Shown here piece by piece: positions 44,611-57,937 of a stretch of 64,000 bases of DNA. Made by a program: the position numbers and the translations under genes. The first letter of the stretch is position 1, and each line of letters begins with the position of its first letter. Origin of the DNA: Gammaproteobacteria bacterium (lineage in GTDB: Bacteria > Pseudomonadota > Gammaproteobacteria > Pseudomonadales > Azotimanducaceae); the NCBI GenBank assembly GCA_026708185.1, contig JAPOVK010000017.1:186001-250000 (forward strand). The letters are read 5' to 3'. A model generated the notes under the pieces. That model saw only the letters and a program-made list of their open reading frames with translations. It did no database searches and had not been told where the DNA came from.

Positions 44611-44886
44611 GGGTTCCCGCCACCAGCACCGGGGTCGGCGCATCCGCCGAGCACGACCAGCCCTGGGGGCGCGAGGCTGGCGAAGCGCTCGGGAGGCCCG
44701 TCCGGGGGGAAGACCCGAGTTCCGGTTCCCGTACCGCGACCAGGTTGCGCGACTCCGCGGTGTCTCGGAGAAGCGGGTGACGTCGAGGCGCGTACCGACG
44801 TGTCCGACAGCGAGTACGGTCGGCTGGAAATGTATACAGTGTTTTACGGCGGATGTACCAAAATGCGTCACCGCTCGACCGTCCGG

Positions 44887-46563
44887 TCAGTAGTCGGACC
44901 AAGTGAGTAATCTATCGACCGCCGCATCCGTGACGCGATCGTCTTCGAGAAACACGTTTGGCACGCCGGCACCGTAGAAACGGACGTTCTCCGGGCGGAA
45001 CAGTGCCCGCGCTGCCGCGACAGCGCGGGGCACTCGGACGTATGCGTCGATGTCACTGCGCGACAGCCAACGTGGCGGATAGCCGGCTTCTTTGCCGATG
45101 ACGCTGCAGCGCACGGGGTCACGGTCGCTGCGTCGGACCCGGGCGGCGAGGAAAGCGCGGTAAGTGACGTCGTCGGGCGGCAGGGAGTAGCCCATGAGTA
45201 CGATGTGATCCGCATCCTCAACGACGACGCGCATGTCGCGTTGGATTTCCTCGAGAAACGGCGGCGGGCGGCTCTTGACCGTGGTCTGCGTAACGAGCGG
45301 GGTGTGATGCGCGTAGGTGAGCGTGCCACAGTGCACACACGCACGGGCATCGACTTCGCCGCGATCCCACGCCCCCTCTTCGTCGACCTGGTCGCCCCAT
45401 GGTTTGAAAGCGATACCGTGCGAGAAACGGGCGAGGGGTGGCGGCGGGAGCAGAGTGCGCGAGTCGACCATCCAAGCGTCACCGATGAAAGAGGAGAGCT
45501 TCCCGCAGTTCGGGCATTCCCGCCACCACAGGCAGCCATGGGGGAAGAGGTATTTGGTGACGCGGACGCGGATATCCGCGCCGTGTTTCGGGTCGTTGAG
45601 TTGCCGGGCGGAGGACTCATTCATCGGCTGCCAGACGGGGCTGCCTGCATGGGGCTTTTCGACCCGGGGGCCGGCGACAAAGTGGCCGAGATCGTGGTAG
45701 GAGAGGAGCGAGGCGTTCCTCGGGCCGATTTGGGGCGCGCGGCGCGGGTCGTTGTATTCGCGGTTCGCTACGAACTGAGACCATAGGCCGACTGGATCCC
45801 AGTTGAGACTGACGAAGCCGACGTCGGTGAGTACGAAACCCGGCTTCTCGAGGTCCGCTTCCCTTTCCGTGGAGTCGGCGAGGGCGATTCCGCGTTCTTG
45901 GACGCGGCGCGATAAAGCGCGAGCGAAGTCGCGATGGAGGTGGAGGTGGTGTTGGCCGACCGCCGACCCGCGGCACGTGTGCCAGTCGATGTATGCCAGC
46001 ACCTGCAGGAGCAGACCGAGCGCATTCCGGGCCGCACGGACCCTCTCGGGCGACAGGAACGTGCGATCCCGAGCTCGGAACCCGTGACCGGATTGCTGAT
46101 GCATGTCGAGCAGATTGAAAAGGTCTCGGAGCCCAAAGCGGTCTACGGCAGGCGCACGAGCGACCGGGGCTCCCGGGCAGATATTGATGGCAGCGACGAG
46201 CGCGGGCCAGTCGTAGAGGGTCCGCAACTGTGCGATGCGTGCGCGCCGCCATCTCGCGTCCGCGCCGGGGAGGCTCCGCTGCATGGCTCGGAGTTGCCCG
46301 GTGGTAACGATGTCGACGCGGGTGTTGTGGTCGGCGTTCCGACCGTTGTCACCGAGGATCGCGAGCAGGTCGTGCAGGGCGTGCTTCCATCGAGCTGGTA
46401 CGTTGCCGAGGGCGCGCCGGACACGTTGCCTGAGAGGTCGATCGACGTCAGGGCGCGGCGCGAGTCGCCGAAGGAACCGAGACTGGTCGTCGGTGACGCG
46501 GAAGCCAAGGGAAGCGGTCGCCCCGGCGCCCCAGAAAACGACGGTTCGGGGTATTCGGGCCAT
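44887..46563 (-). CDS. SIR2-like defence protein with internal zinc ribbon
   Basis: 558 residues. The N-terminus RTVVFWGAGATASLGFRVTD is the glycine-rich nucleotide-binding start of SIR2-like domains, and the end VLMGYSLPPDDVTYRAFL is the typical SIR2-like closing motif. SFVSLNWDPVG matches the conserved Asn-x-Asp region. Between them CPNCGK...CVHCGT forms a probable zinc ribbon. SIR2-like domains in antiphage systems degrade NAD+. It lies downstream of a restriction-modification pair on the same strand. ATG 46563 chosen by homology; no Shine-Dalgarno is seen. Confidence 0.75.
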   Translation of the reverse strand: MARIPRTVVFWGAGATASLGFRVTDDQSRFLRRLAPRPDVDRPLRQRVRRALGNVPARWKHALHDLLAILGDNGRNADHNTRVDIVTTGQLRAMQRSLPGADARWRRARIAQLRTLYDWPALVAAINICPGAPVARAPAVDRFGLRDLFNLLDMHQQSGHGFRARDRTFLSPERVRAARNALGLLLQVLAYIDWHTCRGSAVGQHHLHLHRDFARALSRRVQERGIALADSTEREADLEKPGFVLTDVGFVSLNWDPVGLWSQFVANREYNDPRRAPQIGPRNASLLSYHDLGHFVAGPRVEKPHAGSPVWQPMNESSARQLNDPKHGADIRVRVTKYLFPHGCLWWRECPNCGKLSSFIGDAWMVDSRTLLPPPPLARFSHGIAFKPWGDQVDEEGAWDRGEVDARACVHCGTLTYAHHTPLVTQTTVKSRPPPFLEEIQRDMRVVVEDADHIVLMGYSLPPDDVTYRAFLAARVRRSDRDPVRCSVIGKEAGYPPRWLSRSDIDAYVRVPRAVAAARALFRPENVRFYGAGVPNVFLEDDRVTDAAVDRLLTWSDY

Positions 46564-47221
46564 CACAGTGAAATCACAGACACGGTGCAAACGGTGATGG
46601 GCCTTCTGGTTGCGGAGACCGTCCGATAAGGGCGTCCCGCAAAGGCATCGTGACGTTGCAGGAAAGGGTGGTTTGGCGGGACTCGAACGGCACGCGGGGT
46701 CTGAAACAAGCAAGGGGCAGGCAAATTGTAGCGGATGGCTATGGCTCGCCGGTCCGGATGCACAGTGCCGTGTTTCGCACTCACACGGACCGCCCCCGCG
46801 GGTTGGTCGGAGGGATCCCCGTGGGGCCGAGGTGTCGCCGATGCGCGATTCATCGATTCGGCGACCGGCGCCGTGGAGCGGAAGGCCCAGCGATTGCGTG
46901 GGCTGGTTCGCCAGGAGATGCGGAAGCTCCTTCGGCCAGTCACGCGGTCGCGTGGCGTTCGAGCCGGCGCATGCCAACGGTTGCAGGCATGGCCACACTG
47001 GTCGCATCTGCGGGCCTCTAGGTGCCCTGCCGCTGCGACGCGCCCCGCGGCCATCCGGTCTACCGCGACGAGCGCGACGCCGACGGTAACCAGACAACAC
47101 CGGTGCGGTGAGAGCATGCTGATTACAGAGGCGGCCCGAGCATCTCGTTACGCCGTGGTCAGGAGACAGGCAACGGCCTCGTGCAACTCGTGGACCGCGC
47201 GCTCGATGACGGACCCGTAGC
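46564..47221. other. Gene-poor 658-bp region in the defence island
   Basis: Separates the SIR2-like and methyltransferase genes. No reading frame looks coding on either strand. It contains a tRNA-3'-end-like sequence at 46674-46688 and is the most likely place for a recombination scar. Confidence 0.45.
46674..46688 (-). other. tRNA 3'-end-like sequence, possible attachment-site remnant
   Basis: On the minus strand reads GTTCGAGTCCCGCCA, the T-loop and 3' acceptor side common to many tRNAs. The 5' side does not pair into a T-stem or a tRNA body, so no functional tRNA is present. Such 3'-only pieces are left at att sites. It does not match the tRNA-Sec 3' end at 57818. Confidence 0.3.
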
Positions 47222-48535
47222 TTACGCGCCGGCTCCGACCAACGCCTGCTCGATGTCGCGCTGCTTGCGCTTCCTTGCGCCGCTCTTTCGGTTCCGTCTG
47301 CTGATCGGAACGTCCACGCCCCAGTGCGCCGCTGCCTTAGTCATGCCGAAGCGGAGCAGGTCGGCCGAACCGAGCGAGATCGAGCCCGGCGGAGACGTGG
47401 GTTCGAAGTCCAATGCCTCGCGTACGCATTCCGCGACGGCCCTGGCCAACGGAGGCGGCACAGAATTGCCGATCTGGCGGGCGCCGTGCCACTTGGTGAC
47501 GTGGAACCTGAACCAGTCCGGAAACCCGTGGAGCCTGGCCATCTCGCGCACCGTGACGCAACGGTCATGCGCGTAGTGGATTGGGCGGGGGCTGGTGAAC
47601 GCGCCGCGAGCAGAGTCCGTGCCGGCCCGTAGCGTGTTCGAGACCCCGTTTGCCGCGAGCTTGTAGAAGCGCGATATAGGTTCGACAGTGCCTGGGCGGG
47701 CATCGCGAAACCTGCGCCGCGAGATATCGGTGTGAGCGGTCCGCAGGCTAGCAGTCATGAGGTTTCGGTCCCATTCGCGGACGTAGCCGTAGTGCCAAGC
47801 GTCGTTGCTGAGGCACCTCATCTCGCGAGCATACGCGCTCAGGCGGTCGGGGTTCGCTGGCTGGACGTGCACGGCGTCTGAGTCCGTCAACTCGTCGAAG
47901 TCCTCGGCGTCCGGGAGGTCCTCCAGCGCGTCCCGGCAAGTGGGCGGGTGACAGAACAACTCAGGAAGAGGGTACCGGAGCCCCTTTCCGTTTCTGGCAC
48001 CGAGCAGGAAAAGGCGCTGTCTGTCCTGCGGCACGCCGTAATCCCGTGCGTTCAAAACCTGCCACGGCAGCGTGACACTGTACCCCGCATGCTCGAACTC
48101 GGTCGCCAACTCGTCCAGGACACGTCGGTGCTTGCCGACTGTGAGCCCGCGGACGTTCTCAAGCACGAAGGCGGCAGGCTCGAGCTCCACCACCAAGCGG
48201 AGGAAGTGCTTCACAAGCTGGTTACGCGGGTCATCGAGCGCCCGCTTGCCGATCATCGAGAAGCCTTGGCACGGCGCGCCTCCGACGACGACGTTGATCG
48301 GTGTGTGCACCCGCGAACGAACGTCGGCGCCACATATACGCGTCGCATCCGCGCACAAGGTCCGGCATCGCGGGAAGTTGAAGGCGTGCGTGGCGGCGTG
48401 AACGGGGTCGATTTCCAGCGCAGCGGCCACGTCAAAGCCTGCCTGTTCGAAGCCGAGCGCGAGCCCCCCCACGCCGGCGAAGACATCCAGTACCGTCGGA
48501 CGGCTTTGGGGTTTGGCTGTGCGACTGTTGGTCAC
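47222..48535 (-). CDS. DNA (cytosine-5) methyltransferase of a type II restriction-modification system
   Basis: 437 residues from GTG 48535. Motif I TVLDVFAGVGGLALGFEQAG, motif IV GGAPCQGFSMIGKR with the catalytic Cys, motif VI ENVRG, motif VIII-like QDRQRLFLLG, and the C-terminal motif X QIGNSVPPPLA. The target-recognition domain lies between (~residues 220-330). It should protect the site cut by the upstream endonuclease. The start is preceded by a -10-like box so closely that the transcript may be leaderless. Confidence 0.93.
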   Translation of the reverse strand: MTNSRTAKPQSRPTVLDVFAGVGGLALGFEQAGFDVAAALEIDPVHAATHAFNFPRCRTLCADATRICGADVRSRVHTPINVVVGGAPCQGFSMIGKRALDDPRNQLVKHFLRLVVELEPAAFVLENVRGLTVGKHRRVLDELATEFEHAGYSVTLPWQVLNARDYGVPQDRQRLFLLGARNGKGLRYPLPELFCHPPTCRDALEDLPDAEDFDELTDSDAVHVQPANPDRLSAYAREMRCLSNDAWHYGYVREWDRNLMTASLRTAHTDISRRRFRDARPGTVEPISRFYKLAANGVSNTLRAGTDSARGAFTSPRPIHYAHDRCVTVREMARLHGFPDWFRFHVTKWHGARQIGNSVPPPLARAVAECVREALDFEPTSPPGSISLGSADLLRFGMTKAAAHWGVDVPISRRNRKSGARKRKQRDIEQALVGAGA

Positions 48536-48542
48536 GACAGCT

Positions 48543-48571
48543 ACTGTATATTTGGACAGATCAGATGGCAA
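48543..48571 (-). promoter_or_regulatory. Candidate promoter for the methyltransferase, leaderless-type
   Basis: Minus strand TTGCCA (48571-48566), 17 bp, TACAGT (48548-48543). Transcription would begin about at the GTG at 48535. No Shine-Dalgarno precedes that GTG. This would let the methylase be made independently of the upstream endonuclease. Confidence 0.35.
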
Positions 48572-48697
48572 CCGCGCCGTCGCTAGCTTGCCGTCCCTAG
48601 CAGCCCGGCTTACGGTGCTCCGAAGGGGACGCGGCGAGCGCCGGTGCCAAGGGGCTCGTGGCAAACGGGCCAACGCGGTGCGTACGCTCGGGCAAGT

Positions 48698-49519
48698 TCA
48701 ATCGTCGGCACGTTCGTTGTAACCGAGGAGCTCCTCCTTGGAGATCGAGTTTTCGGGTACGAGATCGTAGTGGATCTCTCGGACGATCTTAACAGCGTCC
48801 TCGGAGATAGTTAGCTCGAACATGGCGATCTTCCCCTTCGGCCCAGACTTCCCCTTCCGTCCGAACTTCGCGGAAAGGGCGCGGCATACAAGCGTAGGGT
48901 ACTCCTGCCGACAGTACTCGAGGTCCTGCCAGAGTTGGGCGTAACCGATCTTGTCGCGACCGACCTTCGCCTGGACGGGAACAACGAAGTGCCTTCCGTG
49001 CCGGTCGACTCCGACGTAAATCTCATCGATTTCGATCTGGCCGATGCCCGCCACCTGGGTTCGAAGGTGATTCTGTAGAGAGTAGGCCGTGATTCCGAAG
49101 AACGTATCGACCAACCGGTTGTAGCGGACGCGGGCGAGGAGGGCCTGTTCGTCGGAGTACGCGTACCGCTTGATTATCTCAGGAGTCGCGTCGGGGATTT
49201 TGGTGGCGAGTAAGCTCTGGTTTGGCACGATGTTGCTGGCGGAGACGAGTCGGAACTCGTACTCCGAGACCCCCCGGCCGAGTATTACCCACTCCTTCCC
49301 CGGAGGCTGGGTGCTGGTGATCTCGTCGGGCAGTTTGGCGCGGTATCGATAGGAGTAGATTGGGCCGTCGCCCATGTTTGCCAGCGGTTCGATGCCGTGG
49401 GTTTCGCAAACCGCGTGGAGGTCGTTTCGCGAGAAACGTACCGACGTCATGCCGGGGGAGTATCTGTCGGAGAAGACGGCGTTGACGATCTGGCTCTGTC
49501 TGCTCGGTGCCTTGGGCAT
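48698..49519 (-). CDS. Predicted type II restriction endonuclease, PD-(D/E)xK fold
   Basis: 273 residues; not a family I can name. The motif QIEIDEIYVGVD followed 13 residues later by FVVPVQAK has the D-(13-20)-Q/E-x-K spacing of PD-(D/E)xK nucleases. It lies 163 bp upstream of a C5 methyltransferase on the same strand, the usual place for the cognate endonuclease. The recognition site is unknown. ATG 49519 chosen; ATG 49450 (MTSVRF) is an alternative. Confidence 0.72.
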   Translation of the reverse strand: MPKAPSRQSQIVNAVFSDRYSPGMTSVRFSRNDLHAVCETHGIEPLANMGDGPIYSYRYRAKLPDEITSTQPPGKEWVILGRGVSEYEFRLVSASNIVPNQSLLATKIPDATPEIIKRYAYSDEQALLARVRYNRLVDTFFGITAYSLQNHLRTQVAGIGQIEIDEIYVGVDRHGRHFVVPVQAKVGRDKIGYAQLWQDLEYCRQEYPTLVCRALSAKFGRKGKSGPKGKIAMFELTISEDAVKIVREIHYDLVPENSISKEELLGYNERADD

Positions 49520-49890
49520 ATGTCGTCCGATGACCCCTTCGTGGTACTAAACGGCGTATGTTGGGAAACAGCGGACCTTTGGATGCCACGAGTGATCCGC
49601 AGCGACGGCGACATAGTACGATGCGCCAGTTTCCATGGCGAGAGAGATCCTGCGGCTCCTCGTTGCCATGTGCACGAGAGCGGGATGGCGGGATCAAGTC
49701 TGCCCGGGAATTGCGCTCGCAGGCGGCCTGGTGTGTCAGCGGTTGCATGGCCGCATGGACGCCACCGGATTGGGAGACGGACAAGCGAGGTCGACCGTTC
49801 TTGTTGGAGGGGCTAGCCTACGGAGCGCGCCGCCGCGGCAGACCGCCCGGGATCGGGGGCGGGCGCAGGACGCATCGACAGAGGACGGAT
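49520..49890. other. 371-bp divergent intergenic region
   Basis: Between the endonuclease gene and the DUF6998-like gene. The DUF6998 frame is open through part of it, and an ATG at 49747 would add MAAWTPPDWETDKRGRPFLL to that protein. No RNA, repeat or clear promoter is seen. Confidence 0.4.
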
Positions 49891-50358
49891 ATGGGCATTG
49901 CAGAGCGAGGGGGAGCAGGGGAAATCGGGGAGATCCTCGGGCGTGCGAAGGAAGTGGCCGTCGACTACTACCGGGCAACCGGAAAGCCGCTTGGGGTGAC
50001 CGGCGAGGTCGGCGAATACGAAGTGGCCCGGCTACTCGACCTCGAGTTGTCGGAGGCGCGAACAGCCGGCTACGACGCGACCGACGCGGAGGGCCGGCGG
50101 TACCAGATAAAGGCGCGTTCGATCCCGGCGGCGGCGCGCGGAAGGTCGCAGCGCGTCGGCACGATCAACTTGGCACACGCGTTCGACGCCGTGCTGCTGG
50201 TGGTTATGGACGAGGCGTTCCGGACGTTGGAGATCTGGGAGGCGAACCGCGAAGCCGTGAAGGCCGCGCTGGAGGCGCCGGGGAGCAAGGCGCGCAACGA
50301 GCGCGGCGCATTGTCGGTCTCCCAGTTTCGTCGGATCGGTCAGCGCGTCTACGGATGA
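49891..50358 (+). CDS. DUF6998-like protein, possible nuclease-related fold
   Basis: 155 residues: LGVTGEVGEYEVARLLDLELSEARTAGYDATD, RRYQIKARSIPA, and the ending APGSKARNERGALSVSQFRRIG. This is the DUF6998 pattern as I remember it. The E...D...QIK order resembles PD-(D/E)xK nucleases, but catalysis is unproven. ATG 49891 follows GAGGAC; an N-terminal extension from 49747 is possible. It overlaps the next gene (ATGA), so the two products are translated together. Confidence 0.65.
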   Translation: MGIAERGGAGEIGEILGRAKEVAVDYYRATGKPLGVTGEVGEYEVARLLDLELSEARTAGYDATDAEGRRYQIKARSIPAAARGRSQRVGTINLAHAFDAVLLVVMDEAFRTLEIWEANREAVKAALEAPGSKARNERGALSVSQFRRIGQRVYG

Positions 50359-51278
50359 CCGCGAGCGGCGGGCGGGCGCCGGAGTCGGCGGTCGGCAAGC
50401 ATCTGGCGGTCGCGAGGATCGTCGTGGACGGCGCGCCCGCGCGTACGAACCGGCGGGGATCGAACGTGGCGGGCGCCCGGAGGATGCTGCTGCAGGCACG
50501 AGCGCACAGGACGTGGGGGAAGCCGGCGTCGTTTGCCATGACGCCCGGGGGCTTCCTGCAGTACCCGTTTCCCGCGGACTACGCAGGCCGTCGGGGATGG
50601 CGATCACGTGATCATGACTTCAGGGCACTCGCGCGGTGGGCGCAGGCTGCGGTAGACGAGTTCCTGACGCCGCGGGTGCTTGCGGCGGCGCGGCCTGCAG
50701 CGGACTACCTGACGCTGGGCGTGGACCTGCACAACGACGTGTGGAAAGGGGAGGCGCTGCGGACGGCGGGGCTCGCCGCGGAACTCGTGGCGATCGTGGA
50801 GACCGCGTCCGCGGCGACGGTACACTGGACCGGGAAGTCGTATCCAACGCCTTCTCAGGAGCGGATGTTGGTGCGGGAGCCAGACCTCGATAGCCACCGC
50901 TTCGAATGCCGCCACGGTCGGATCCTCGTGCTTGGCTGCCACGATCTCAACATGTTCAGCAACCGGTCGCGTTCGAGGCTAAGGCCGGGTACGCCGCGCA
51001 GCGTGTGCTGGCACGAGATGAACCGGCTGGCGGGGGAATTTGCCCCGACCGCGATCCTGCACCATCCGCATTCGACTGACTCGCGGCAAATTTGGTCGGT
51101 CGGCTGGAGCGGGGCCCGCCGGTTGTTGCCGACGGGCGCGGACGGGCGTCCGCATGTCTGGGCGTCGGCGATCGCCTACTACAACCGGCACGGTGCTCGT
51201 CAGGCGCTGGGCGACGTGCTTGAAGCGACGGCGTGCTGTTCCCGCGTGGCGTATGTGGTGGTCGCCGGCGACGGATAG
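50355..51278 (+). CDS. Unknown 307-residue protein coupled to the DUF6998-like gene
   Basis: No family recognised. Visible conserved-looking blocks are DYLTLGVDLHND, VLGCHDLNMFSNRS, CWHEMNRLAGEF, AILHHPHSTDSRQIWSVGWSG and YYNRHGARQALGDVL. The His/Asp-rich HDLN and HHPHSTDS segments look like metal ligands of a hydrolase or nuclease. Starts four bases inside the DUF6998-like gene, which implies a joint role. Lies in the defence island. Confidence 0.65.
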   Translation: MTASGGRAPESAVGKHLAVARIVVDGAPARTNRRGSNVAGARRMLLQARAHRTWGKPASFAMTPGGFLQYPFPADYAGRRGWRSRDHDFRALARWAQAAVDEFLTPRVLAAARPAADYLTLGVDLHNDVWKGEALRTAGLAAELVAIVETASAATVHWTGKSYPTPSQERMLVREPDLDSHRFECRHGRILVLGCHDLNMFSNRSRSRLRPGTPRSVCWHEMNRLAGEFAPTAILHHPHSTDSRQIWSVGWSGARRLLPTGADGRPHVWASAIAYYNRHGARQALGDVLEATACCSRVAYVVVAGDG

Positions 51279-51280
51279 GC

Positions 51281-51735
51281 GTGAACGGCGCCGGGGCCGG
51301 GCCGTGCTCCGGCGGCATCCCCGTAGAGTTGCTAGTACCACGGCACGGGGAGGACGACCGGACGTTTTACGGCTGCACGAACTACCCCTACTGCGAGCGC
51401 ACTGAACGGCCATGCCCGGAATGCGGCGTCGGGTTGAGGCTACGCGAAGGGGGACACCTCGGTGCCGGGAGTGCGGCTCGACGGCGCAGGCATGCCCGCG
51501 TTGCGACGGCGTGCTGCTTGAGCGTACCGGGCCCTACGGCCCTTTCGGCGGCTGCTCCAACCACCCGGCATGTACCCTACAGGTGGGATGGGCGTCGCGT
51601 TGCTACGAGCCGTTCCAGTGTCGAAGGCCGGGGCGGGCGTGCACGTCGATAGGCCAACACCCAAGGCACCGTCAATGTGATGTGGACGCTGTGCGGGCGA
51701 GCGGGACCACCGCAGTAGCTCACCTCCGACGATAG
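51281..51735 (+). pseudogene. Topoisomerase-type zinc-ribbon protein with a one-base frameshift
   Basis: Frame 1 from GTG 51281 encodes FYGCTNYPYCERTERPCPECGVGL; frame 2 continues with PRCRECGSTAQACPRCDGVLLE and GPYGPFGGCSNHPACTLQVGW. Together they give at least two zf-C4-Topoisom-like ribbons. The frames join if one G is added to the G5 run at 51449-51453, so a base is missing there by mutation, programmed slippage or assembly error. The module resembles DNA-binding tails of topoisomerase I and of some helicases. Confidence 0.65.
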
Positions 51736-51774
51736 AAGACCAGATCCCCTCGCGACGCGGGGCGGAATGCCGGT

Positions 51775-53256
51775 TCAAGCAGTGAGAGCGGAGGGCCGTT
51801 CGCGTCTACCCGACCTTGCGGGCATTGCCTTGAGATGGTCCGGGTCCCCGACCGGGGGAAGGCCGAGTTCGCTCGCCCGATCGTCCAGATATGCCAGGTA
51901 GCGTGTTTGCGCGACCAATTCGCCATCGGGATCTTCGGCTAGGAGGCCGACGAGTTCCCGCTGGGCGGCCGGGATCGACCGCCAGGGGACACGAGCATCG
52001 GGCAGGGCGGCGAGACGCTTCCGCAAGGCTTCGTCTGCGCGGGATCGCCATTTCGCCGGAAGCACGTCGGGTCGCTCGAGGTAGATGAGCCGCAGTGCTA
52101 GGCGGCGGAGCCTGGGGTCGGCGAGCCGCCGAGCCGTGTCTTGGCGCGAGACCCAGGGCAGCGAATGGAACGAGTCCATGAGGGTTCTGTCCTGGTCGGA
52201 CGGAAAGCCGTGACCGTACAACTGGTCCTCAACGTGGTCCGACGGGGGATAGACTGGCTCAGCGTCCTGCGCGGCTTGACGAAGGCGGCCGTAGAGGTCG
52301 GCATGCGCGCGGAGTTGTCCGACGCGCTGAAGAACCTCGGCTTCGTCGGCAAAGGGCTCGATCAGCTCGGCGGGTGCTTCGTAGAGAGGCCACAGCGTCG
52401 GTGCCCTGTTCGTGCGGACCGCCACCACGGGGCTATCGAGCCCCTCGCAAACGGTGACGAGTTCGGCATCCGACATGGACGCGAGGGAGTCGACGTCGGC
52501 GCTCAGGTCCAGGCAGTAGTGACGAGGCTGGGCGGGGTGTGGGCCGATGGGGGCGACGACCCGAAAGCGATGCTGGTTGCCGAAAGTCTCGGATACGAGG
52601 AATGCATCCTCTTCGACAATGAAGGCCTCGACGCTCGCCCTCTGGCTGAACCTCACGAATTGCGACCAGACGTCTGGGGCGCGTCGACGAATCGTCCTGC
52701 AGAGGGAGAGAGTCGCCATGGCGTCGGCCATGGGATCGTGTGGAGTGCCGATTGGGCAGTCATTGGCTGCGGCGAGCGCTCTGAGGCGGAAGCTGACGCT
52801 ACCGTCAGGGTGCCGCGCGGGCCGGAATACGTGCGGTCTGAGGCATGCCGCGAGCCGGCAGAGCGGTAGCACGTCGGCGCGGGCGCTGCCTTGGGTGTTG
52901 GTCAAGAAGGGTTCGTAGAGACACTGATAGAGCGCGTGGCGGAGAAACTCCTCGTCGAAGGGGATGGAGTTGTAGCCGAGGTGGATGGCCGGTCCCCAGG
53001 AGACCAGCGTACTCCGGATGTCCGTGACCATCGCGTAGTGTGACGGCAAGGACGGGTGGATCAACTGGCCTATGTGAAGCCCGGTAATCCTGAGGGCCTC
53101 CGGTGAGGGGATGACATGGCGCGAAAGCCGAGCCCGGAACACCTCTTGATCTAGGACCGCCAGGTCGGAGTCAGTGAGGATGGCTGCGAACTGGAGAATC
53201 TGGTCGAAACGCGTTGAGAGGCCCGTCGTCTCGACGTCGTAGATGACGAAGCTCAA
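51775..53256 (-). CDS. ExoI/SbcB-like DEDDh exonuclease
   Basis: 493 residues. ExoI N-terminus YDVETTGLSTRFDQILQFAAI (catalytic Asp and Glu), LGYNSIPFDEEFLRHALYQ and HDPMADAMATLSL (final Asp). The ExoI C-terminal helical region is present (VEDQLYGHGFPSDQDRTLM). E. coli ExoI degrades single-stranded DNA 3' to 5'. Here the gene lies inside a defence island, overlapping ImmA/IrrE by 4 bp, so a defence or regulatory role rather than housekeeping repair is inferred. Confidence 0.88.
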   Translation of the reverse strand: MSFVIYDVETTGLSTRFDQILQFAAILTDSDLAVLDQEVFRARLSRHVIPSPEALRITGLHIGQLIHPSLPSHYAMVTDIRSTLVSWGPAIHLGYNSIPFDEEFLRHALYQCLYEPFLTNTQGSARADVLPLCRLAACLRPHVFRPARHPDGSVSFRLRALAAANDCPIGTPHDPMADAMATLSLCRTIRRRAPDVWSQFVRFSQRASVEAFIVEEDAFLVSETFGNQHRFRVVAPIGPHPAQPRHYCLDLSADVDSLASMSDAELVTVCEGLDSPVVAVRTNRAPTLWPLYEAPAELIEPFADEAEVLQRVGQLRAHADLYGRLRQAAQDAEPVYPPSDHVEDQLYGHGFPSDQDRTLMDSFHSLPWVSRQDTARRLADPRLRRLALRLIYLERPDVLPAKWRSRADEALRKRLAALPDARVPWRSIPAAQRELVGLLAEDPDGELVAQTRYLAYLDDRASELGLPPVGDPDHLKAMPARSGRRERPSALTA

Positions 53257-53783
53257 CTCTGTTCTCCGAGCGAACTCAGCCGGTAACGCATCGCTGCGGG
53301 GCTGACCCTGAACCGTCTGGCCAGTGCCACGACCGCGTCGTCATCCTCAAGATCGACGGAACGGCCGCCGAGTGCCGAGGCGATGATGTCCGGCGGCATG
53401 AGCAGTTCCGCCGCGAAGGTGTTCGCTTCGATTTCGATCGGATCGAGGCCCTCGGCGGCACGGGCGTCGCGGCGCAGGGGGCCGCGGTCCACATGGACGG
53501 CGTGTTCCAGATGCCGGCGGTGAAGTTGGACGTGGGCGAGCTCGTGGGCGAGCGTGAAGCGCTGGCGGCTCGGCGCGTGCAGGGCATTCATGCCGACGAT
53601 GGGGACGCCGTCCCGGATGCAGACGAGGCCGGAGAGATCGCCGTCGAGCGGGGCGTACTCGACCCGGATCCCTAGGGACCTGGCAATGCGCTCGATCGGA
53701 ATCGGAGGGGTCTTGATGCCATGGTCGTCCAGCAGTGCCCGTGCCGCGGCGCGGGCACCGGGCTTGTCGGCACGACGTGTCAT
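53253..53783 (-). CDS. ImmA/IrrE-family metallopeptidase
   Basis: 176 residues from ATG 53783. Zinc motif in RFTLAHELAHVQLH (HExxH), third ligand region IEIEANTFAAELLMP. ImmA/IrrE proteases cleave or inactivate XRE-type repressors; the XRE gene lies directly upstream and overlaps it by 4 bp, the usual pair. Followed by the exonuclease gene with a 4-bp overlap, forming one transcript. Confidence 0.88.
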   Translation of the reverse strand: MTRRADKPGARAAARALLDDHGIKTPPIPIERIARSLGIRVEYAPLDGDLSGLVCIRDGVPIVGMNALHAPSRQRFTLAHELAHVQLHRRHLEHAVHVDRGPLRRDARAAEGLDPIEIEANTFAAELLMPPDIIASALGGRSVDLEDDDAVVALARRFRVSPAAMRYRLSSLGEQS

Positions 53784-54118
53784 GAGGATCTTTGGCCGCC
53801 GTGGCCGACGGGCATGGAGGCCACAAGGTGTTCGACGGACGATCGCTCGCTCGGCGTGAGAACCGTTCCGGTGACCCGGAGATTCGGCAGGTCTGATGGC
53901 GGCGCCCATGTCTGGGGCACCAGATCGAGGATGGAGTCGAGGTTCAGGATGTTCACCAGCCCGAAAAGCTGGTGGACCATGATGCGCTGCCGGCCGCATT
54001 CGAGATTGGCTAGGGACGCACGCGACAGGCCGAGCCTCGCGGCAACGTCCCGCTGGGTGAGGCCGAGCTGCCGGCGGCGGTTCGCGACCGTGCGACCGAG
54101 ACGGCGATACAGTTCCAT
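53780..54118 (-). CDS. XRE-family transcriptional regulator
   Basis: 112 residues. Helix-turn-helix QLGLTQRDVAARLGLSRASLANLECGRQRI at about residues 18-47, followed by a short C-terminal domain. Start at MELYRR (54118); GTG 54127 adds three residues. Head of the XRE-ImmA-exonuclease operon and divergent from the ubiquitin-like operon. It probably represses one or both promoters in the 276-bp gap, with ImmA relieving repression; this is inferred from family behaviour. Confidence 0.86.
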   Translation of the reverse strand: MELYRRLGRTVANRRRQLGLTQRDVAARLGLSRASLANLECGRQRIMVHQLFGLVNILNLDSILDLVPQTWAPPSDLPNLRVTGTVLTPSERSSVEHLVASMPVGHGGQRSS

Positions 54119-54132
54119 GTCTGCCACAACTA

Positions 54133-54201
54133 CAAACTACCTGGTCCTCGGGCGTGCGTCAAACGGGCCCGAGCCATCAGACTATCTCCGCTCAAACTAC
54201 C
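54133..54201. promoter_or_regulatory. Direct repeats CAAACTACC, candidate XRE operator
   Basis: Identical 9-bp copies at 54133-54141 and 54193-54201, with a partial copy TCAAACGG between them. They lie immediately upstream of the XRE gene. The half-site CAAAC recurs in the inverted repeat at 54277-54296. Confidence 0.45.
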
Positions 54202-54276
54202 CGTTGGACGAAGGATTTCGGTGACAAGCATCGGTACACGCGACCGAAGTCGGTGACACGCAGGTCTGTGTACTGG

Positions 54277-54296
54277 ACAAACAACTTAAAGTTTGT
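54277..54296. promoter_or_regulatory. Inverted repeat ACAAAC-N8-GTTTGT, candidate operator
   Basis: Perfect 6-bp arms with an 8-bp AT-rich centre, 12 bp upstream of the -35 box of the ubiquitin-like operon. It shares the CAAAC half-site with the direct repeats near the XRE gene. Confidence 0.45.
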
Positions 54297-54308
54297 CAGT
54301 CGATATGG

Positions 54309-54338
54309 TTGACACGGCTAGATTTGGCCTGATAGGGT
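54309..54338 (+). promoter_or_regulatory. Candidate promoter of the ubiquitin-like operon
   Basis: TTGACA at 54309-54314, an 18-bp spacer and TAGGGT at 54333-54338. It leaves a leader of about 60 nt before the Ubl start codon. Confidence 0.45.
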
Positions 54339-54404
54339 CTCGATTGGCGGCAGCGAGGACTTGGAATCCTCGCGCCAGCGGAATTGGACAACTTGGAGCA
54401 TGAG

Positions 54405-54662
54405 ATGGCAAAGACTGTCGAGGTCTCGATATCAACAGGATCAGGCTTTTTCCCCGAGGAGGGGTTCGTCCGCGTCCCGGAAGACGAGAAGGTGCATTTC
54501 CTGCTGGAGAAGGCGCAGCTGACGCTGGACCTGAAGGACACGGGCGACTGGGGCGTGAACGTGGCGGGTCGTCGAATCGATCCGGAGCAGACGTACGCCG
54601 AAAACGGGCTCGGGGGCGAGGTTACGCTGAGCTGGGGTCCCAAGCGCGGAGGCGGCGGCTGA
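54405..54662 (+). CDS. Ubiquitin-like modifier (Ubl) ending in GGGG, BilA-position
   Basis: 85 residues with one beta-grasp-like domain: VEVSISTGSGFFPEEGFVRV (two strands), helix VHFLLEKAQLTLDL, then DWGVNVAGRRIDPEQTYAEN and VTLSWGPKRGGGG. The exposed C-terminal glycines are what an E1 adenylates. No processing tail follows, so the modifier is made mature. Known BilA proteins (ISG15-like) have two such domains; this one has a single domain. GGAG is six bases upstream of ATG 54405. First gene of a four-gene operon. Confidence 0.82.
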   Translation: MAKTVEVSISTGSGFFPEEGFVRVPEDEKVHFLLEKAQLTLDLKDTGDWGVNVAGRRIDPEQTYAENGLGGEVTLSWGPKRGGGG

Positions 54663-55106
54663 ATGCACGCGGCCGCATCGAGACGCATGTTCGCGGAGGA
54701 CACGGCGCACCTCACGGCGAAGTTCGCGGCGGCACGAGGGTGGACGCTCCACGAAGTGGAATTCCCACGAATCGACTGCTGCTTCGCCGGGCCCCACAAG
54801 AGGTCGATCAGGTTGCGGCTGTGGTGCGACGACTGGAACGACCAGCCGCCGTCGATAGAGATCCTTGATCCAGACGGATCGCCGGTGTCGAAACCGCTCG
54901 TGGATCCCAACTCGGTCTTCAACCAGGGTCCCCATCCGGTGACCTTAAGACCCTTCATCTGCACGCGCGGTTCTCGCGAGTACCACACGCACCAGAGCCA
55001 CGGGAACGACCTGTGGGAGAACGTCAAGGATGATAGGGGCAAGTACGGCCTCGGCGGGATTCTGAGCGGGTTGTGGGATGCGTGGATCGACCTGAGGGAG
55101 GGATAG
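54663..55106 (+). CDS. E2-like (UBC-fold) protein with C-E-H-H motif, BilB-position
   Basis: 147 residues. N-terminal helix, then strands including DDWNDQPPSIEILDPDG, which resembles the YPxxPPxV turn of E2 enzymes. The candidate catalytic Cys (near 100) is in RPFICTRGSREYHTHQSH, where C-x5-E-x-H-x-H matches the CEHH signature described for a predicted metal-binding family in prokaryotic ubiquitin-like loci. E2 activity is inferred from position and fold pattern; a metal-binding partner is the alternative. The ATG directly follows the Ubl stop. Confidence 0.68.
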   Translation: MHAAASRRMFAEDTAHLTAKFAAARGWTLHEVEFPRIDCCFAGPHKRSIRLRLWCDDWNDQPPSIEILDPDGSPVSKPLVDPNSVFNQGPHPVTLRPFICTRGSREYHTHQSHGNDLWENVKDDRGKYGLGGILSGLWDAWIDLREG

Positions 55107-55110
55107 GGCG

Positions 55111-55572
55111 ATGGTCGTTCTATGCCCTTCGGGAGTGGTGACCGTGACCCTTGACGAGATCCGGTCGGCCGGACGGCGCGGGCGCGAGTGCGGCGTTCTC
55201 TGGCTGGGGCGCCGGAACGCGGGCTGCGTCAGGATCGTGGAAGCCTACCGGCCGGCGCAGAATGCAAGCGGGCGGATGTTCGAGTTCCCCCGGAGCAGCA
55301 TGGCGGCGCTCGAGAAAAAGCTGATCCAGGAGCGCTACATGATCCCGGCGCAGGTCCATTCCCACCCGGGTAGGGCGTTTCACTCGCTGGCGGACGATCA
55401 CGGAGCGGTGATCCGCCACGGAGGAGCCCTGTCGTTGGTGGTACCCGACTTCGGGCTGCGAACGAGCGTCGACAGATTCCTTGCGGATGCCAAGGTGTAC
55501 CGGCTTACGGCCGAAAACCGATGGATCGAGGTCGGGGCAATGGAGTTGGACAAATGTCTCCGGGTCGTCTGA
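55111..55572 (+). CDS. JAB/JAMM metallo-isopeptidase, BilC-position
   Basis: 153 residues. The zinc motif is in AQVHSHPGRAFHSLADDH: His 83, His 85, Ser 92 and Asp 95/96; the spacing from HSHP to Ser is one residue shorter than in Rpn11. Expected to remove the Ubl from targets or recycle conjugates. GGGAGGGATAGGG precedes the ATG. Overlaps the E1 gene by 19 bp. Confidence 0.86.
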   Translation: MVVLCPSGVVTVTLDEIRSAGRRGRECGVLWLGRRNAGCVRIVEAYRPAQNASGRMFEFPRSSMAALEKKLIQERYMIPAQVHSHPGRAFHSLADDHGAVIRHGGALSLVVPDFGLRTSVDRFLADAKVYRLTAENRWIEVGAMELDKCLRVV

Positions 55573-56954
55573 ACCGGGATGCGGCGATGGAAAACGCGCT
55601 CACCCTGGCCGAGGTCGCCGGTGTGAGCCTTCCCGAGGCGGAGGAGGCGCTCGGAGTGGTGACTGCCGTCACGTTCGATTGTACCGACGAGACGGCGCGC
55701 CAAGTCGCCGGCGAGGTCGAGGCGCTGTTGAGTCGAACCGTGCGGACGGTGGGCGGGACGAATGGTGAGGGCGAGGCGATCGCGGAGCTGGTCATCGGCG
55801 ACGCGCCGTCGCGCACCCGGGGCGCGAAGATGTATCTCGGAATCGCGCAGGGCGAGGCGGTGCTGCGGCGGACCAGAGACAGGTACCGCAGGTGCGCGGC
55901 GATCCCGCGCGTGCTGCACGTGTTGATTGCGTGTATTGCCACGGGGGCGGTGCTCCGCCGGGCGCTGCCGGGAGCGCTTCCGGGGCCCGACAGGGACACG
56001 CTGGTCCTGAGCTACGCGGACTTGGGGTTGGATCTGGGGCGGATGGCGGAGCCGATCGACGTCGGGCACGCGTACATGGCCGGGGCGGGGGCGGTCGGCA
56101 ACGGGTTCCTTTGGGCCGTACGGCATCTGAGCTTTGTTGGAAGACTGGACATCGTCGACGACGACCGCGTGAGCAAGGGGAATCTGAATCGCCAGGTCTG
56201 GTTCGGCGACGAAGACGTGTGCCGCTCGAAGGCGGTGCAACTGGCAGCAAAGGCGGGCCAGCACTGCGGGGGTCTGGAACTGGTGCCGAGGGAGTGCCGT
56301 TTGCAGGATCTTCCCGACAGGTCCGACGGACCGTGGCTCGAACGGCTGATCGTAGGAGTCGACAGTAGGCGTGCTCGACGCGCCCTTCAGAACGAGTGTC
56401 CCGGTGAGGTGTTCGACGCATCGACAACGGATATTAGGGAGGTGGTGCTGCACCACAATAGACAGCCCGCGGCGGGCGCGTGCTTGGGCTGCGTGTATCC
56501 GCCGGACGAGGAGGAGTACACACGCGAGCACCACATTGCGGAACGTCTGGGTGTCGCGATCGCCGAAGTTCGAAGGGAGCGCATTTCACCGGAGTCCGCG
56601 CGGGAAATCTCGAGGAGGTATCCGCAGCTGCGCCCTGGAGACCTCGTCGGGGTCGCTTTCGACACGTTGTTCAAACGGCTTTGTTCGGAGGGGGAGCTGG
56701 ACGGTGGTCCCGGGAAGAGAGTGGTGGCACCGTTCGCGTTCGTGTCGGTGTTGGCAGGTGCGTTTCTCGCGCTTGAGATGGTAAGGCGACTTGGGAGCGG
56801 ACATGTGGCGGGCTACAACTTTTGGCGCGTGAACCCCTGGTCGTCTTGGGAGTCGCGGCTGCGGGAGACGTGGCCGAAGCAGGATGGTTGCACGTTCTGC
56901 GGGAACTCGGACCTGATGGTCGTGAACGGTGAACTTTGGGGAAGCCGGGCCTGA
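55554..56954 (+). CDS. E1-like (ThiF/MoeB-fold) adenylating enzyme, BilD-position
   Basis: 466 residues. A ~170-residue N-terminal domain (ENALTLAEVAGVSLPEAEEAL...) precedes the Rossmann loop HAYMAGAGAVGNGFLW near 176, then VDDDRVSKGNLNRQVWF (adenylation Asp/Arg/Asn). Zinc pairs CLGC near 310-313 and CTFC near the C-terminus fit the MoeB/ThiF structural zinc. It would adenylate the Ubl C-terminal Gly and pass it to the E2-like protein; the transfer Cys is not obvious, Cys in KRLCSEGEL being one candidate. ATG 55554 has GGAG upstream; ATG 55587 is an alternative. Confidence 0.86.
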   Translation: MSPGRLNRDAAMENALTLAEVAGVSLPEAEEALGVVTAVTFDCTDETARQVAGEVEALLSRTVRTVGGTNGEGEAIAELVIGDAPSRTRGAKMYLGIAQGEAVLRRTRDRYRRCAAIPRVLHVLIACIATGAVLRRALPGALPGPDRDTLVLSYADLGLDLGRMAEPIDVGHAYMAGAGAVGNGFLWAVRHLSFVGRLDIVDDDRVSKGNLNRQVWFGDEDVCRSKAVQLAAKAGQHCGGLELVPRECRLQDLPDRSDGPWLERLIVGVDSRRARRALQNECPGEVFDASTTDIREVVLHHNRQPAAGACLGCVYPPDEEEYTREHHIAERLGVAIAEVRRERISPESAREISRRYPQLRPGDLVGVAFDTLFKRLCSEGELDGGPGKRVVAPFAFVSVLAGAFLALEMVRRLGSGHVAGYNFWRVNPWSSWESRLRETWPKQDGCTFCGNSDLMVVNGELWGSRA

Positions 56955-57167
56955 AGGGAAGTCAGCGCTACGCGCCAGACCGTACGTGATAGGGCGGGCC
57001 GCCGTACATTTTCGCTGACTATCGGGGCTGGGAAACGCGCGTCAAATCCGACGCACTGTCGGGCACGGCAAGGCGAGCCCGGGGTGGCTGGCGGTCAAGG
57101 CGGGGCTCCGCAGGCGAGGCCTAGATTCAGCGACCGGGAAGGCGGGCAGGCGGGTCCCGCGCGTTGG

Positions 57168-57600
57168 CTACTGTGTGCGGAGCCCGGCGGCCAATTCCGC
57201 CCACTGGTCCATTAGGACGCGTCTTTTCTCGAAGAGGTCCGATCGGGCGTAGGCCCGCTCGACGGCCGACCCGACCGTGTGCGCCAACGCGAGTTCCAAC
57301 ACGGGATCGGCCGCGTGTGGGTTCGCTCGGCGGCCCAATCGCGTAACGCGGACCGGTAGCCGTGCATGGTCGTGCGCTCGGCCAGGCTGGCGCGGCCCAG
57401 CACGGCCGCAAGGGTCGCGGACGCCTCGGCGAGCGCCACGGCGGGGTGCGGACCCAGTCCGAGTTCGCGCCGTCGGCCGTCGATGGTTGCGCGGAACACC
57501 CAGGTCTTGGCGCCCGTGTACGCGGAGCGGAGATACAGTCCGTCCGTGCATGGCCGGCTTGGCGAGTACTTTGACCTTTGCGGCGGTGAGTTTTTGCCAC
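57168..57600 (-). pseudogene. P4-type tyrosine integrase remnant at selC
   Basis: Pieces of one integrase in three frames. N-terminal DUF4102 part: KLTAAKVKVLAKP, then after a frameshift DGLYLRSAYTGAKTWVFRAT and GRRRELGLGPHPAVALAEA. The central ~200 residues are missing. The C-terminal catalytic end is next, TTMHGYRSALRDWAAE (H-x-x-R), then after a second frameshift DPVLELALAHTVGSAVERAY and ARSDLFEKRRVLM with the nucleophile Tyr. Points away from tRNA-Sec, ~220 bp from its 3' end. Non-functional. Confidence 0.85.
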
Positions 57601-57817
57601 TTTCGTGGGGTGGTGGGTTGGACTCCCGTGGGAGGAGGCCAATGGCGGTTCGACTCCCTCTGAACGAGTTTACCCACCACTCAGCCGCCAGTCACGGCCG
57701 AAACCCTACGCGACGTCGAGACGAGAGTCAAGACGACGAATATCGCTTAACGTAATGATAAGTCGTCGGTTTTCGAGGCTTTGCGGGGCGTTCTGGAGCG
57801 GCGTGAGAAAGGGGTGG

Positions 57818-57911
57818 TGGCGGAAGAGGTAGGAGTCGAACCCACCGGGCACCTATCGAGCGCCCCGACGGCTTTGAAGGCCGCGCGCCCCACCGGAGAC
57901 GATGCTCTTCC
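57818..57911 (-). tRNA. selC: tRNA-Sec, anticodon TCA
   Basis: 94 nt including encoded CCA. 5' GGAAGAG pairs with CTCTTCC before G-CCA; the anticodon loop CTTCAAA gives TCA; the long extra arm (TCGGGGCGCTCGATAGGTGCCC region) and T-arm GGGTTCGACTCC are clear. It closely resembles E. coli selC. It lies 27 bp downstream of selB on the same strand, completing a selA-selB-selC set that decodes UGA as selenocysteine. Confidence 0.95.
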
Positions 57912-57937
57912 GGGGGCCATTGTACGACCTTGTCCGA

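Follow-up and report, generated by a model that had tools for sequence, protein, structure and literature searches.

Within the 64,000-nucleotide stretch of a gammaproteobacterial genome analyzed here (family Azotimanducaceae; GenBank assembly GCA_026708185.1, contig JAPOVK010000017.1, positions 186,001 to 250,000; hereafter, the window), 4 genes on the plus strand at 54405-56954 encode a ubiquitin-like protein (Ubl), an E2, a JAMM (JAB) isopeptidase and an E1, and together make up a complete Bil-type operon in the order Ubl-E2-JAB-E1 (Table 1). The preliminary description, made from the letters of the window, had reported 4 tightly packed genes in this order, and indeed all open reading frames (ORFs) are present, with a 0-bp gap between the Ubl and E2 genes, a 4-bp gap between the E2 and JAB genes and a 19-bp overlap between the JAB and E1 genes. 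Three of the products pass Pfam cut-offs: the E2 matches Metal_CEHH (33.7 bits; cut-off 25), the isopeptidase Prok-JAB (26.6; cut-off 25), and the E1 both ThiF (50.5; cut-off 28.1) and E1-N (37.4; cut-off 27). The E1 start at ATG 55554 (466 aa) agrees better with the annotated starts of its relatives than the alternative ATG 55521 (477 aa); the E1 residue numbers of Cys388 and the CxxC pairs follow the 477-aa reading. Divergently from the operon lie genes for a helix-turn-helix (HTH) repressor, an M78 metalloprotease and an exonuclease, and all of these reside on a genomic island that ends at a selenocysteine tRNA gene (tRNA-SeC).

Table 1. Genes and other features of the Bil-type operon, its divergent controller and the island that carries them (positions in the window)
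Feature	Position	Strand	Remarks
Ubl (BilA role)	54405..54662	+	ATG start; 85 aa; C-terminus ...KRGGGG, then TGA; tail-less
E2 (BilB role)	54663..55106	+	147 aa; Metal_CEHH; C100-x5-E106-x-H108-x4-H113
JAMM (JAB) isopeptidase (BilC role)	55111..55572	+	153 aa; E26, H83, H85, S92, D95
E1 (BilD role)	55554..56954	+	E1-N plus ThiF adenylation domain; candidate catalytic Cys388; CxxC pairs 321/324 and 457/460
CapH-like HTH repressor	53780..54127	-	HTH_3 35.9 bits (cut-off 23); PADLOC capH 5.8e-05; first controller gene
CapP-like M78 (ImmA/IrrE) metalloprotease	53253..53783	-	HELAH; PADLOC capP 3.4e-32; Peptidase_M78 83 bits
ExoI/SbcB-like DEDDh exonuclease	51775..53256	-	493 aa; third controller gene; RNase_T and Exonuc_X-T_C above cut-off; PADLOC RTasSbcB 1.4e-90
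Tentative operator-like inverted repeat GACAAAC-8-GTTTGTC	54276..54297		between the divergent operons
Genomic island carrying the operon	44680..57818		13.1 kb; right edge = tRNA-SeC 3' end
C5 DNA methylase	47222-48673	-	island
Type II restriction enzyme	48698-49519	-	island
Methyl-directed restriction enzyme	49558-50358	+	island
tRNA-SeC, inferred integration site	57819..57912	-	

The solved structure that best matches the window E1 is BilD (8tyz_A), with an E-value of 1.7e-21 over residues 56-466 in a phmmer search, far above MccB and eukaryotic E1s, and no ThiF or MoeB chains were among the solved matches listed. The alignment to BilD extends across 411 residues; E1-N plus ThiF fit the N-terminal inactive and C-terminal active adenylation domains with a catalytic Cys, and the catalytic residues are invariant in an alignment of 6 E1s. 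The JAB protein matches BilC (8tyx_B; E-value of 9.8e-17) with the HSHP motif aligned and with E26 opposite residue 33 of the solved chain, which is named as an E33A mutant; residues E26, H83, H85, S92 and D95 are invariant across 24 sequences. The solved Bil system (PDB 8tyx/8tyz/8tz0) presumably comes from Ensifer aridi. Its BilD piece (427 residues) is 95.5-96.3% identical to Sinorhizobium plasmid proteins, including 95.5% identity to the one on pNGR234a, where the operon encodes a 98-aa Ubl (DUF2604, 121 bits), a Metal_CEHH protein (327 bits), a JAB protein and an E1.

The product of the second gene matches BilB with an E-value of 0.0011 as a single sequence and of 2.5e-10 as a profile of 25 relatives. 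Its C100, E106, H108 and H113 are spaced (+6, +8, +13) exactly as in the solved BilB chain, which reads C-x5-E-x-H-x4-H; the BilB motif is reported to consist of Cys138, Glu144, His146 and His151, with Cys138 being catalytic (PMC11354881). Thus, the C-E-H-H signature, previously read as a candidate metal motif that might mark a subtype, has the spacing of the published BilB active-site motif and is not an extra one; the Metal_CEHH family itself, named beforehand as a profile to search, was found above its cut-off, and the Pfam label "metal-binding CEHH" is again seen to cover a conserved E2 active site. All 4 residues are invariant in 25 aligned E2s, as are His110 and His91, the latter 9 residues before the Cys, but the alignment was picked from loci with the strict motif, leaving out L013 and L045 where the motif deviates, so that the 4-residue invariance is partly by construction. 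The strict motif is present in 8 of 19 remote loci searched for it (L046, L048-L051, L059, L088, L089). The AlphaFold2 model of the E2, like that of the Ubl below built on an alignment from the family's own loci, has a mean predicted local distance difference test (pLDDT) score of 90, and in a Foldseek search its top 3 matches are BilB chains (E-values of 6e-7 to 3e-6; template modeling (TM) scores of 0.65-0.72, with 0.72 to 8tz0_C). Eukaryotic E2s rank next, with weak E-values of 9e-3 or worse, and the expectation of a conjugating-enzyme fold is accordingly borne out by BilB and only faintly by the eukaryotic enzymes.

The Ubl is, according to its model, a single beta-grasp domain, and the GGGG end ascribed to it earlier is directly followed by TGA. 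No Pfam family exceeds its cut-off in this protein, the best being DUF2604 (E-value of 0.019; 15.8 bits against 25), but the model, backed by a family of 26 aligned sequences, has a mean pLDDT of 89 and the element order of a beta-grasp. In Foldseek, it groups with chains of SUMO and ubiquitin, and the Bil Ubl 8tyx_A ranks 4th (TM score of 0.72) and 8tyz_B 23rd, in line with the fold anticipated for the 85-residue product. The profile of the window Ubl family found only 2 weak Gly-rich matches among solved sequences, both variants of 1 protein. Multi_ubiq has no match in the window Ubl, so that of the 2 affiliations proposed at the outset, Bil and Bub, the former is upheld by the BilB, BilC and BilD matches and the latter is not; Bil, rather than Bub, is the correct name for the window operon.

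We surveyed 31 full-length Ubls of the window family, near-copies included and with manually chosen starts. Fifteen have at most 21 residues before the conserved Ubl domain (2 in the window), 6 have a longer N-terminus of 41-64 residues that appears coiled-coil-like by eye, 1 has a second Ubl domain, 1 has 173 residues unassigned to any family and 8 have an N-terminal part of about 150 residues, with Multi_ubiq above cut-off in 2 of the 3 scanned. Such operons reportedly carry Ubls with 1 to 3 beta-grasp domains and diverse N-termini. Hence, the single domain, advanced in the preliminary description as a ground for a subtype by contrast with the 2-domain, ISG15-like BilA, does not serve as one, and we do not regard a 2-domain Ubl as defining for Bil: the Ubl of pNGR234a, a close copy of the solved system, is a 1-domain protein of 98 aa, and 15 of the 31 family members are likewise short before their one domain. 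Only 7 of the 31 end directly in GG, all within the E1 clade of the window, whereas the other 24 carry 1-5 extra residues; in L021 (same record as L011), the eighth member of that clade, the Ubl gene is frameshifted and the GGGG end lies in another frame. Since the window Ubl already ends in GG, trimming of the BilC type should be unnecessary.

One contig scan using an E1 alignment yielded 46 loci, 30 clear (L016-L045) and 16 remote. The clear relatives, with a best-segment identity of 35-52% over most of the E1, span Pseudomonadota, Acidobacteriota, Verrucomicrobiota, Bacteroidota, Myxococcota, Campylobacterota and Fidelibacterota (labels of the tree tool). In 29 of them (L040, a copy of L014, was omitted), the same order was found, with the JAB motif in 29/29, a strict C-E-H-H E2 in 27/29 and a GG-ending Ubl in 27/29; the exceptions are L043, where the contig end cuts off E2 and Ubl, L021 with its frameshifted Ubl and L045, the E2 of which deviates from the motif. 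The examined relatives lie in Ubl-conjugation operons and none in a thiamine or molybdopterin operon, as the proposed identification led one to expect. The window E1 falls into a clade of 8 rows with L016-L022 (support 95/82) and shares 26.5-27.7% identity with the Sinorhizobium E1s from the clade of the solved system. The window operon is part of a Bil clade that has diverged and possesses a Ubl family of its own. The grounds originally given for a distinct subtype are lost, but a separate clade is indicated by the E1 divergence, by a Ubl that cannot be detected by sequence from that of pNGR234a and by the absence of a C-terminal tail on the Ubl. Closer to the host, the operon occurs only sporadically: 58 genomes contained a full-length E1 match only in the genome of the window itself and partial ones in 10 others (E-values of 8.8e-16 to 3.2e-4), of which the best, in G008 from the same genus, has 31% identity over 239 residues and a JAMM motif, with no C-E-H-H in the 3.7 kb examined. 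Among 398 genomes of the phylum, 3 including the window's own pass 1e-25, the other 2 carrying C-E-H-H and JAMM motifs of the solved-type form. A haloarchaeal 4-gene run on a Natrinema zhouii plasmid (L085 1794-4556) also resembles a Ubl-conjugation operon; it encodes an 86-aa protein, a 158-aa protein that weakly matches DUF7665 and A3, a JAMM protein and a ThiF protein, and no C-E-H-H motif.

The 3 controller genes overlap by 4 bp at each junction (CapH/CapP and CapP/exonuclease). CapH and CapP are described as a protease-repressor pair that is triggered by single-stranded DNA (ssDNA) and controls immune operons (PMC13373217, PMC10904395), reportedly Bub operons as well (PMC13373217). The third gene product has exonuclease I as its best solved match by sequence (3.1e-32) but scores under the NCBIfam ExoI equivalog cut-off (193 versus 260 bits); its DEDDh residues D7, E9, D101, H173 and D178 are invariant in 6 aligned loci, and another SbcB-like gene, 32% identical to it, is present elsewhere in the host genome. 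The inverted repeat between the operons is 1 of 8 inverted pairs in 321 bases and may have arisen by chance; loosely similar CAAA/TTTG repeats occur in L090, L091 and L094 (counted with no chance control), with none of that form in L092 and L093, and a sigma-70 scan returned no promoter in the divergent region.

An HTH and M78 pair is divergent from the Ubl gene in 18 (window included) of the 30 family loci for which 1.2 kb or more of upstream sequence is available, L023 and L024 being counted on weak or motif evidence. In all 7 other members of the window E1 clade (L016-L022), the HTH and M78 genes match a different version. The window CapP, by comparison, shares 70% identity with a Rhizobium anhuiense CapP encoded next to a Ubl operon of the DUF7665 type, and 33-40% with Bil-associated CapPs that lack the exonuclease. 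Because the window CapP is nearer to that of R. anhuiense while its own E1 clade has the other version, the controller was probably exchanged. At the position of the regulators in other loci, rhizobial members with multiubiquitin-Ubl fusions have an annotated RES/Xre toxin-antitoxin pair (L014 3177-4266), and genes of the same sizes are seen in L034, L036, L038 and L042.

A tblastn search with the exonuclease in plasmids returned 43 records, 7 of them covering 75% or more of the query with 39-56% identity; 5 loci were examined, 2 further R. leguminosarum plasmids being taken as near-copies by coverage and identity, and 2 Rhizobium records that cover 45% of the query with 46.8% identity lay outside the examined set. 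All 5 loci (L090-L094) have HTH, M78 and exonuclease genes in that order; the operon divergent from this cassette includes an E1 in 4 (L090 and L093 with DUF7665, L091 and L092 with multiubiquitin) and is CBASS-like (cyclic oligonucleotide-based antiphage signaling system) by annotation in L094. In the search of the 398 phylum genomes with the exonuclease, 85 pass 1e-30, and 30 loci were fetched: the window's own, 1 at 41% identity and 28 at 36% or less. The cassette is present at the 41% locus (L096/L125), where it faces an operon that is CBASS-like by eye, whereas the 28 distant loci (L097-L124) have CapP in 0/28 and a CapH-like HTH in 1/28 (L108) within 1.5-kb flanks. Viral contigs yielded no match to the exonuclease.

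The operon had been described as lying in a defense island, and it does reside on a 13.1-kb island that holds 3 restriction/methylation genes, the controller and the Bil operon. The close relative G007 (locus L078; SelB 93% identical) can be aligned with the window as far as 44679 and then from 57818 onward, and between these points the window has 13.1 kb against 1.47 kb in G007, from which the island is absent; other, smaller differences lie further left. The GC content of the island (65.4%) is close to that of its flanks (66.1 and 67.2%), and a search of its left edge for a copy of the tRNA end found none. The tRNA-SeC site may be a hot spot of integration, since G007 carries other apparent genes there (L078 16444-17593), which look by eye like an Xre-type and RES-type toxin-antitoxin pair. 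Beside tRNA-SeC, window positions 57127-57700 on the minus strand hold broken frame pieces with weak profile matches only, one end of which resembles the C-terminal part of a tyrosine integrase. A 737-aa ORF that lies where the island begins on the left (44887-47100, minus strand) has no Pfam, PADLOC or PHROGs match at the thresholds used.

From the identity and order of the genes, the conserved catalytic residues, the predicted Ubl and E2 folds, the island and the cassette, we infer how the system would be induced, which biochemical steps it would catalyze, what it would target and how it would affect phages. Very likely, the 4 genes form a ubiquitin-like conjugation operon of the Bil type that belongs to a diverged clade, is carried on a tRNA-SeC island and works as follows. 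The CapH-like repressor would hold the operon off until phage infection or DNA damage produces ssDNA that activates the CapP-like protease, whereupon CapH would be cut and the operon expressed. The E1 would adenylate the C-terminal glycine of the Ubl and carry the Ubl as a thioester on Cys388, from which it would be passed to Cys100 of the E2 for attachment to lysines on its protein targets, probably structural proteins of phages as in known Bil systems. The JAMM enzyme would remove the Ubl; in the solved system, BilC is reported to trim BilA (PMC11354881). Finally, the exonuclease may degrade the ssDNA signal and thereby reset the sensor to off, as has been proposed in print for Cap18 (PMC10419184).

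Several observations weigh against this reading or parts of it. SUMO chains score equal to or above the Bil Ubl as matches of the window Ubl model, and the profile of the window Ubl family detects neither the pNGR234a nor the R. etli Ubl, so that it is fold and operon position that tie the Ubl to the solved Bil, and the window Ubls form a separate sequence family. In the E1 alignment, Cys388 is 1 residue off from Cys417 of BilD by manual count. The PADLOC Bil models fit weakly, with 17.7 bits for BilB, 43 for BilC and 31 for BilD and no match for BilA; likewise, the profiles are weak or absent on 10 proteins from 5 other loci (L016, L034, L039, L041 and pNGR234a). No relatives of the E1 were found in phage records or viral contigs. 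Some relatives are damaged or deviant: in Bradyrhizobium septentrionale (L012), an IS110 element (L012 4164-5393) lies near the expected Ubl/E2 site while the JAB end and the E1 persist, Gln replaces Glu in the E2 motif of L013, and the Ubl gene of the plasmid relative L011/L021 is frameshifted. Bub operons, which share these regulators, are stated to lack proven phage protection (PMC13373217).

That last statement also feeds the most serious competing account, in which the Ubl-conjugation chemistry is as described but serves a response to DNA damage or stress, with the island reflecting horizontal transfer only. Control genes of the ssDNA type and the suggestion that Bub operons, which have the same regulators, may act in the response to stress (PMC13373217) speak for it, but the operon shares its island with type II restriction genes, the same cassette adjoins a CBASS-like operon, and published Bil systems are, by the titles of the papers and reportedly their content, antiphage; we regard a stress-response role as unlikely. 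Loss of the conjugation chemistry is far harder to reconcile with the data. A ThiF-family domain in the E1 and a small GG-ending beta-grasp protein would also suit a sulfur-carrier or cofactor operon (ThiS/MoaD with ThiF/MoeB) in which no conjugation takes place, but a BilB-like E2 and a JAMM protease in an order conserved across relatives, and an E1 with BilD as its best solved match and no ThiF or MoeB chain listed, make this exceedingly improbable. Hardly more credible is a pathway that stops at the E1, with the second protein binding metal but lacking conjugating activity: the Pfam name "Predicted metal binding domain" invites this notion, yet the same residues form the BilB active site, and BilB chains take the first 3 places among the fold matches, followed by eukaryotic E2s, which match weakly.

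The role of the exonuclease was weighed separately. It may be an unrelated neighbor outside the controller, given that, in the 4 kb upstream of the Ubl, other loci with Bil-associated CapP-like genes lack such an exonuclease and that the exonuclease-linked CapPs are not established as 1 clade (approximately unbiased test, p-AU 0.161, which neither supports nor rejects it). Against this stand the order HTH, M78, exonuclease in 6/6 examined non-window loci with an about 40% or more identical exonuclease, the 4-bp gene overlaps in the window and the 28 distant loci, with CapP at none and a CapH-like HTH at one; a mere neighbor is, in our estimation, quite improbable. We tentatively propose that CapH, CapP and the ExoI-type exonuclease may form a control module exchanged among Ubl-conjugation and CBASS-like operons, in which the exonuclease would be a built-in off switch that destroys the CapP-activating ssDNA and yields a pulse of expression: an ExoI-type counterpart of the Cap18 proposal, here coupled to a Bil operon with an already mature Ubl. 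The off-switch idea itself is mostly not new, being already in print for Cap18, a 3'-5' exonuclease that occurs with CapW or CapH and CapP and may act by removing ssDNA (PMC10419184). An ExoI-type exonuclease as the third gene of a CapH-CapP operon beside Ubl operons was not found in print, in a search that covered mostly titles and the beginnings of abstracts and had subscription papers outside its reach; PMC13373217 does not mention exonuclease, ExoI or SbcB.

The window operon enlarges a clade of complete ubiquitin-style conjugation operons that the PADLOC Bil profiles catch poorly and provides a minimal Ubl of 85 aa, apparently pre-matured, with which the pathway could be reconstituted. 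In the repressor-protease-exonuclease cassette that recurs across loci, there is a second setting for the question of how bacteria shut immune operons off after a DNA-damage signal. The variant features are modest but testable: a bare, tail-less Ubl, a separate Ubl family and a probably exchanged controller that includes an exonuclease of the ExoI type.

Compared with the solved Bil system and its pNGR234a copy, an operon type described in Rhizobium NGR234 in 2006 with 1 protein predicted to bind metal (PMC1779556), the window has the same order Ubl-E2-JAB-E1, the same E2 C-E-H-H active site and JAMM residues, the N-terminal and adenylation domains of the E1 and a 1-domain Ubl. It differs from pNGR234a in that the E1 is 27.7% identical over 71%, with Pfam E1-N rather than Prok-E2_C at the N-terminus, the E2 has 147 rather than 205 aa, and the Ubl, of a different sequence family, ends in GGGG instead of KAGVAGA. 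Closer Bil relatives, with E1s 48-52% identical, are those of Bradyrhizobium pBb1S5b (L011/L021), L016, L017, L019, L020, L022 and Dyella L018, which have the same 4 genes and, in the 6 Ubls read, a Ubl of the same family ending in GG with no tail; unlike in the window, 4 of these 6 have a 41-51-residue N-terminal extension or a second domain, and the controller is the other HTH-M78 version (with a CopG gene annotated in L011) instead of CapH-CapP-exonuclease. Bub operons, of the multiubiquitin type, are also E1-based Ubl operons, and the window's exonuclease cassette adjoins Multi_ubiq operons in L091 and L092, but these have a Multi_ubiq Ubl and neither a C-E-H-H E2 nor an HxHP motif in the genes read there. 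With the known CapH-CapP regulators, the window shares an HTH and an M78 protease gene divergent from an immune operon. Its exonuclease is distinct from Cap18 in being a 493-aa enzyme of the ExoI/SbcB type, a comparison made only through the PDB search, where the solved matches at an E-value of 0.1 or better were exonuclease I and oligoribonuclease-type chains and included no chain named Cap18; its gene is the third in the regulator operon, whereas that of Cap18 in E. coli upec-117 follows the CBASS core genes.

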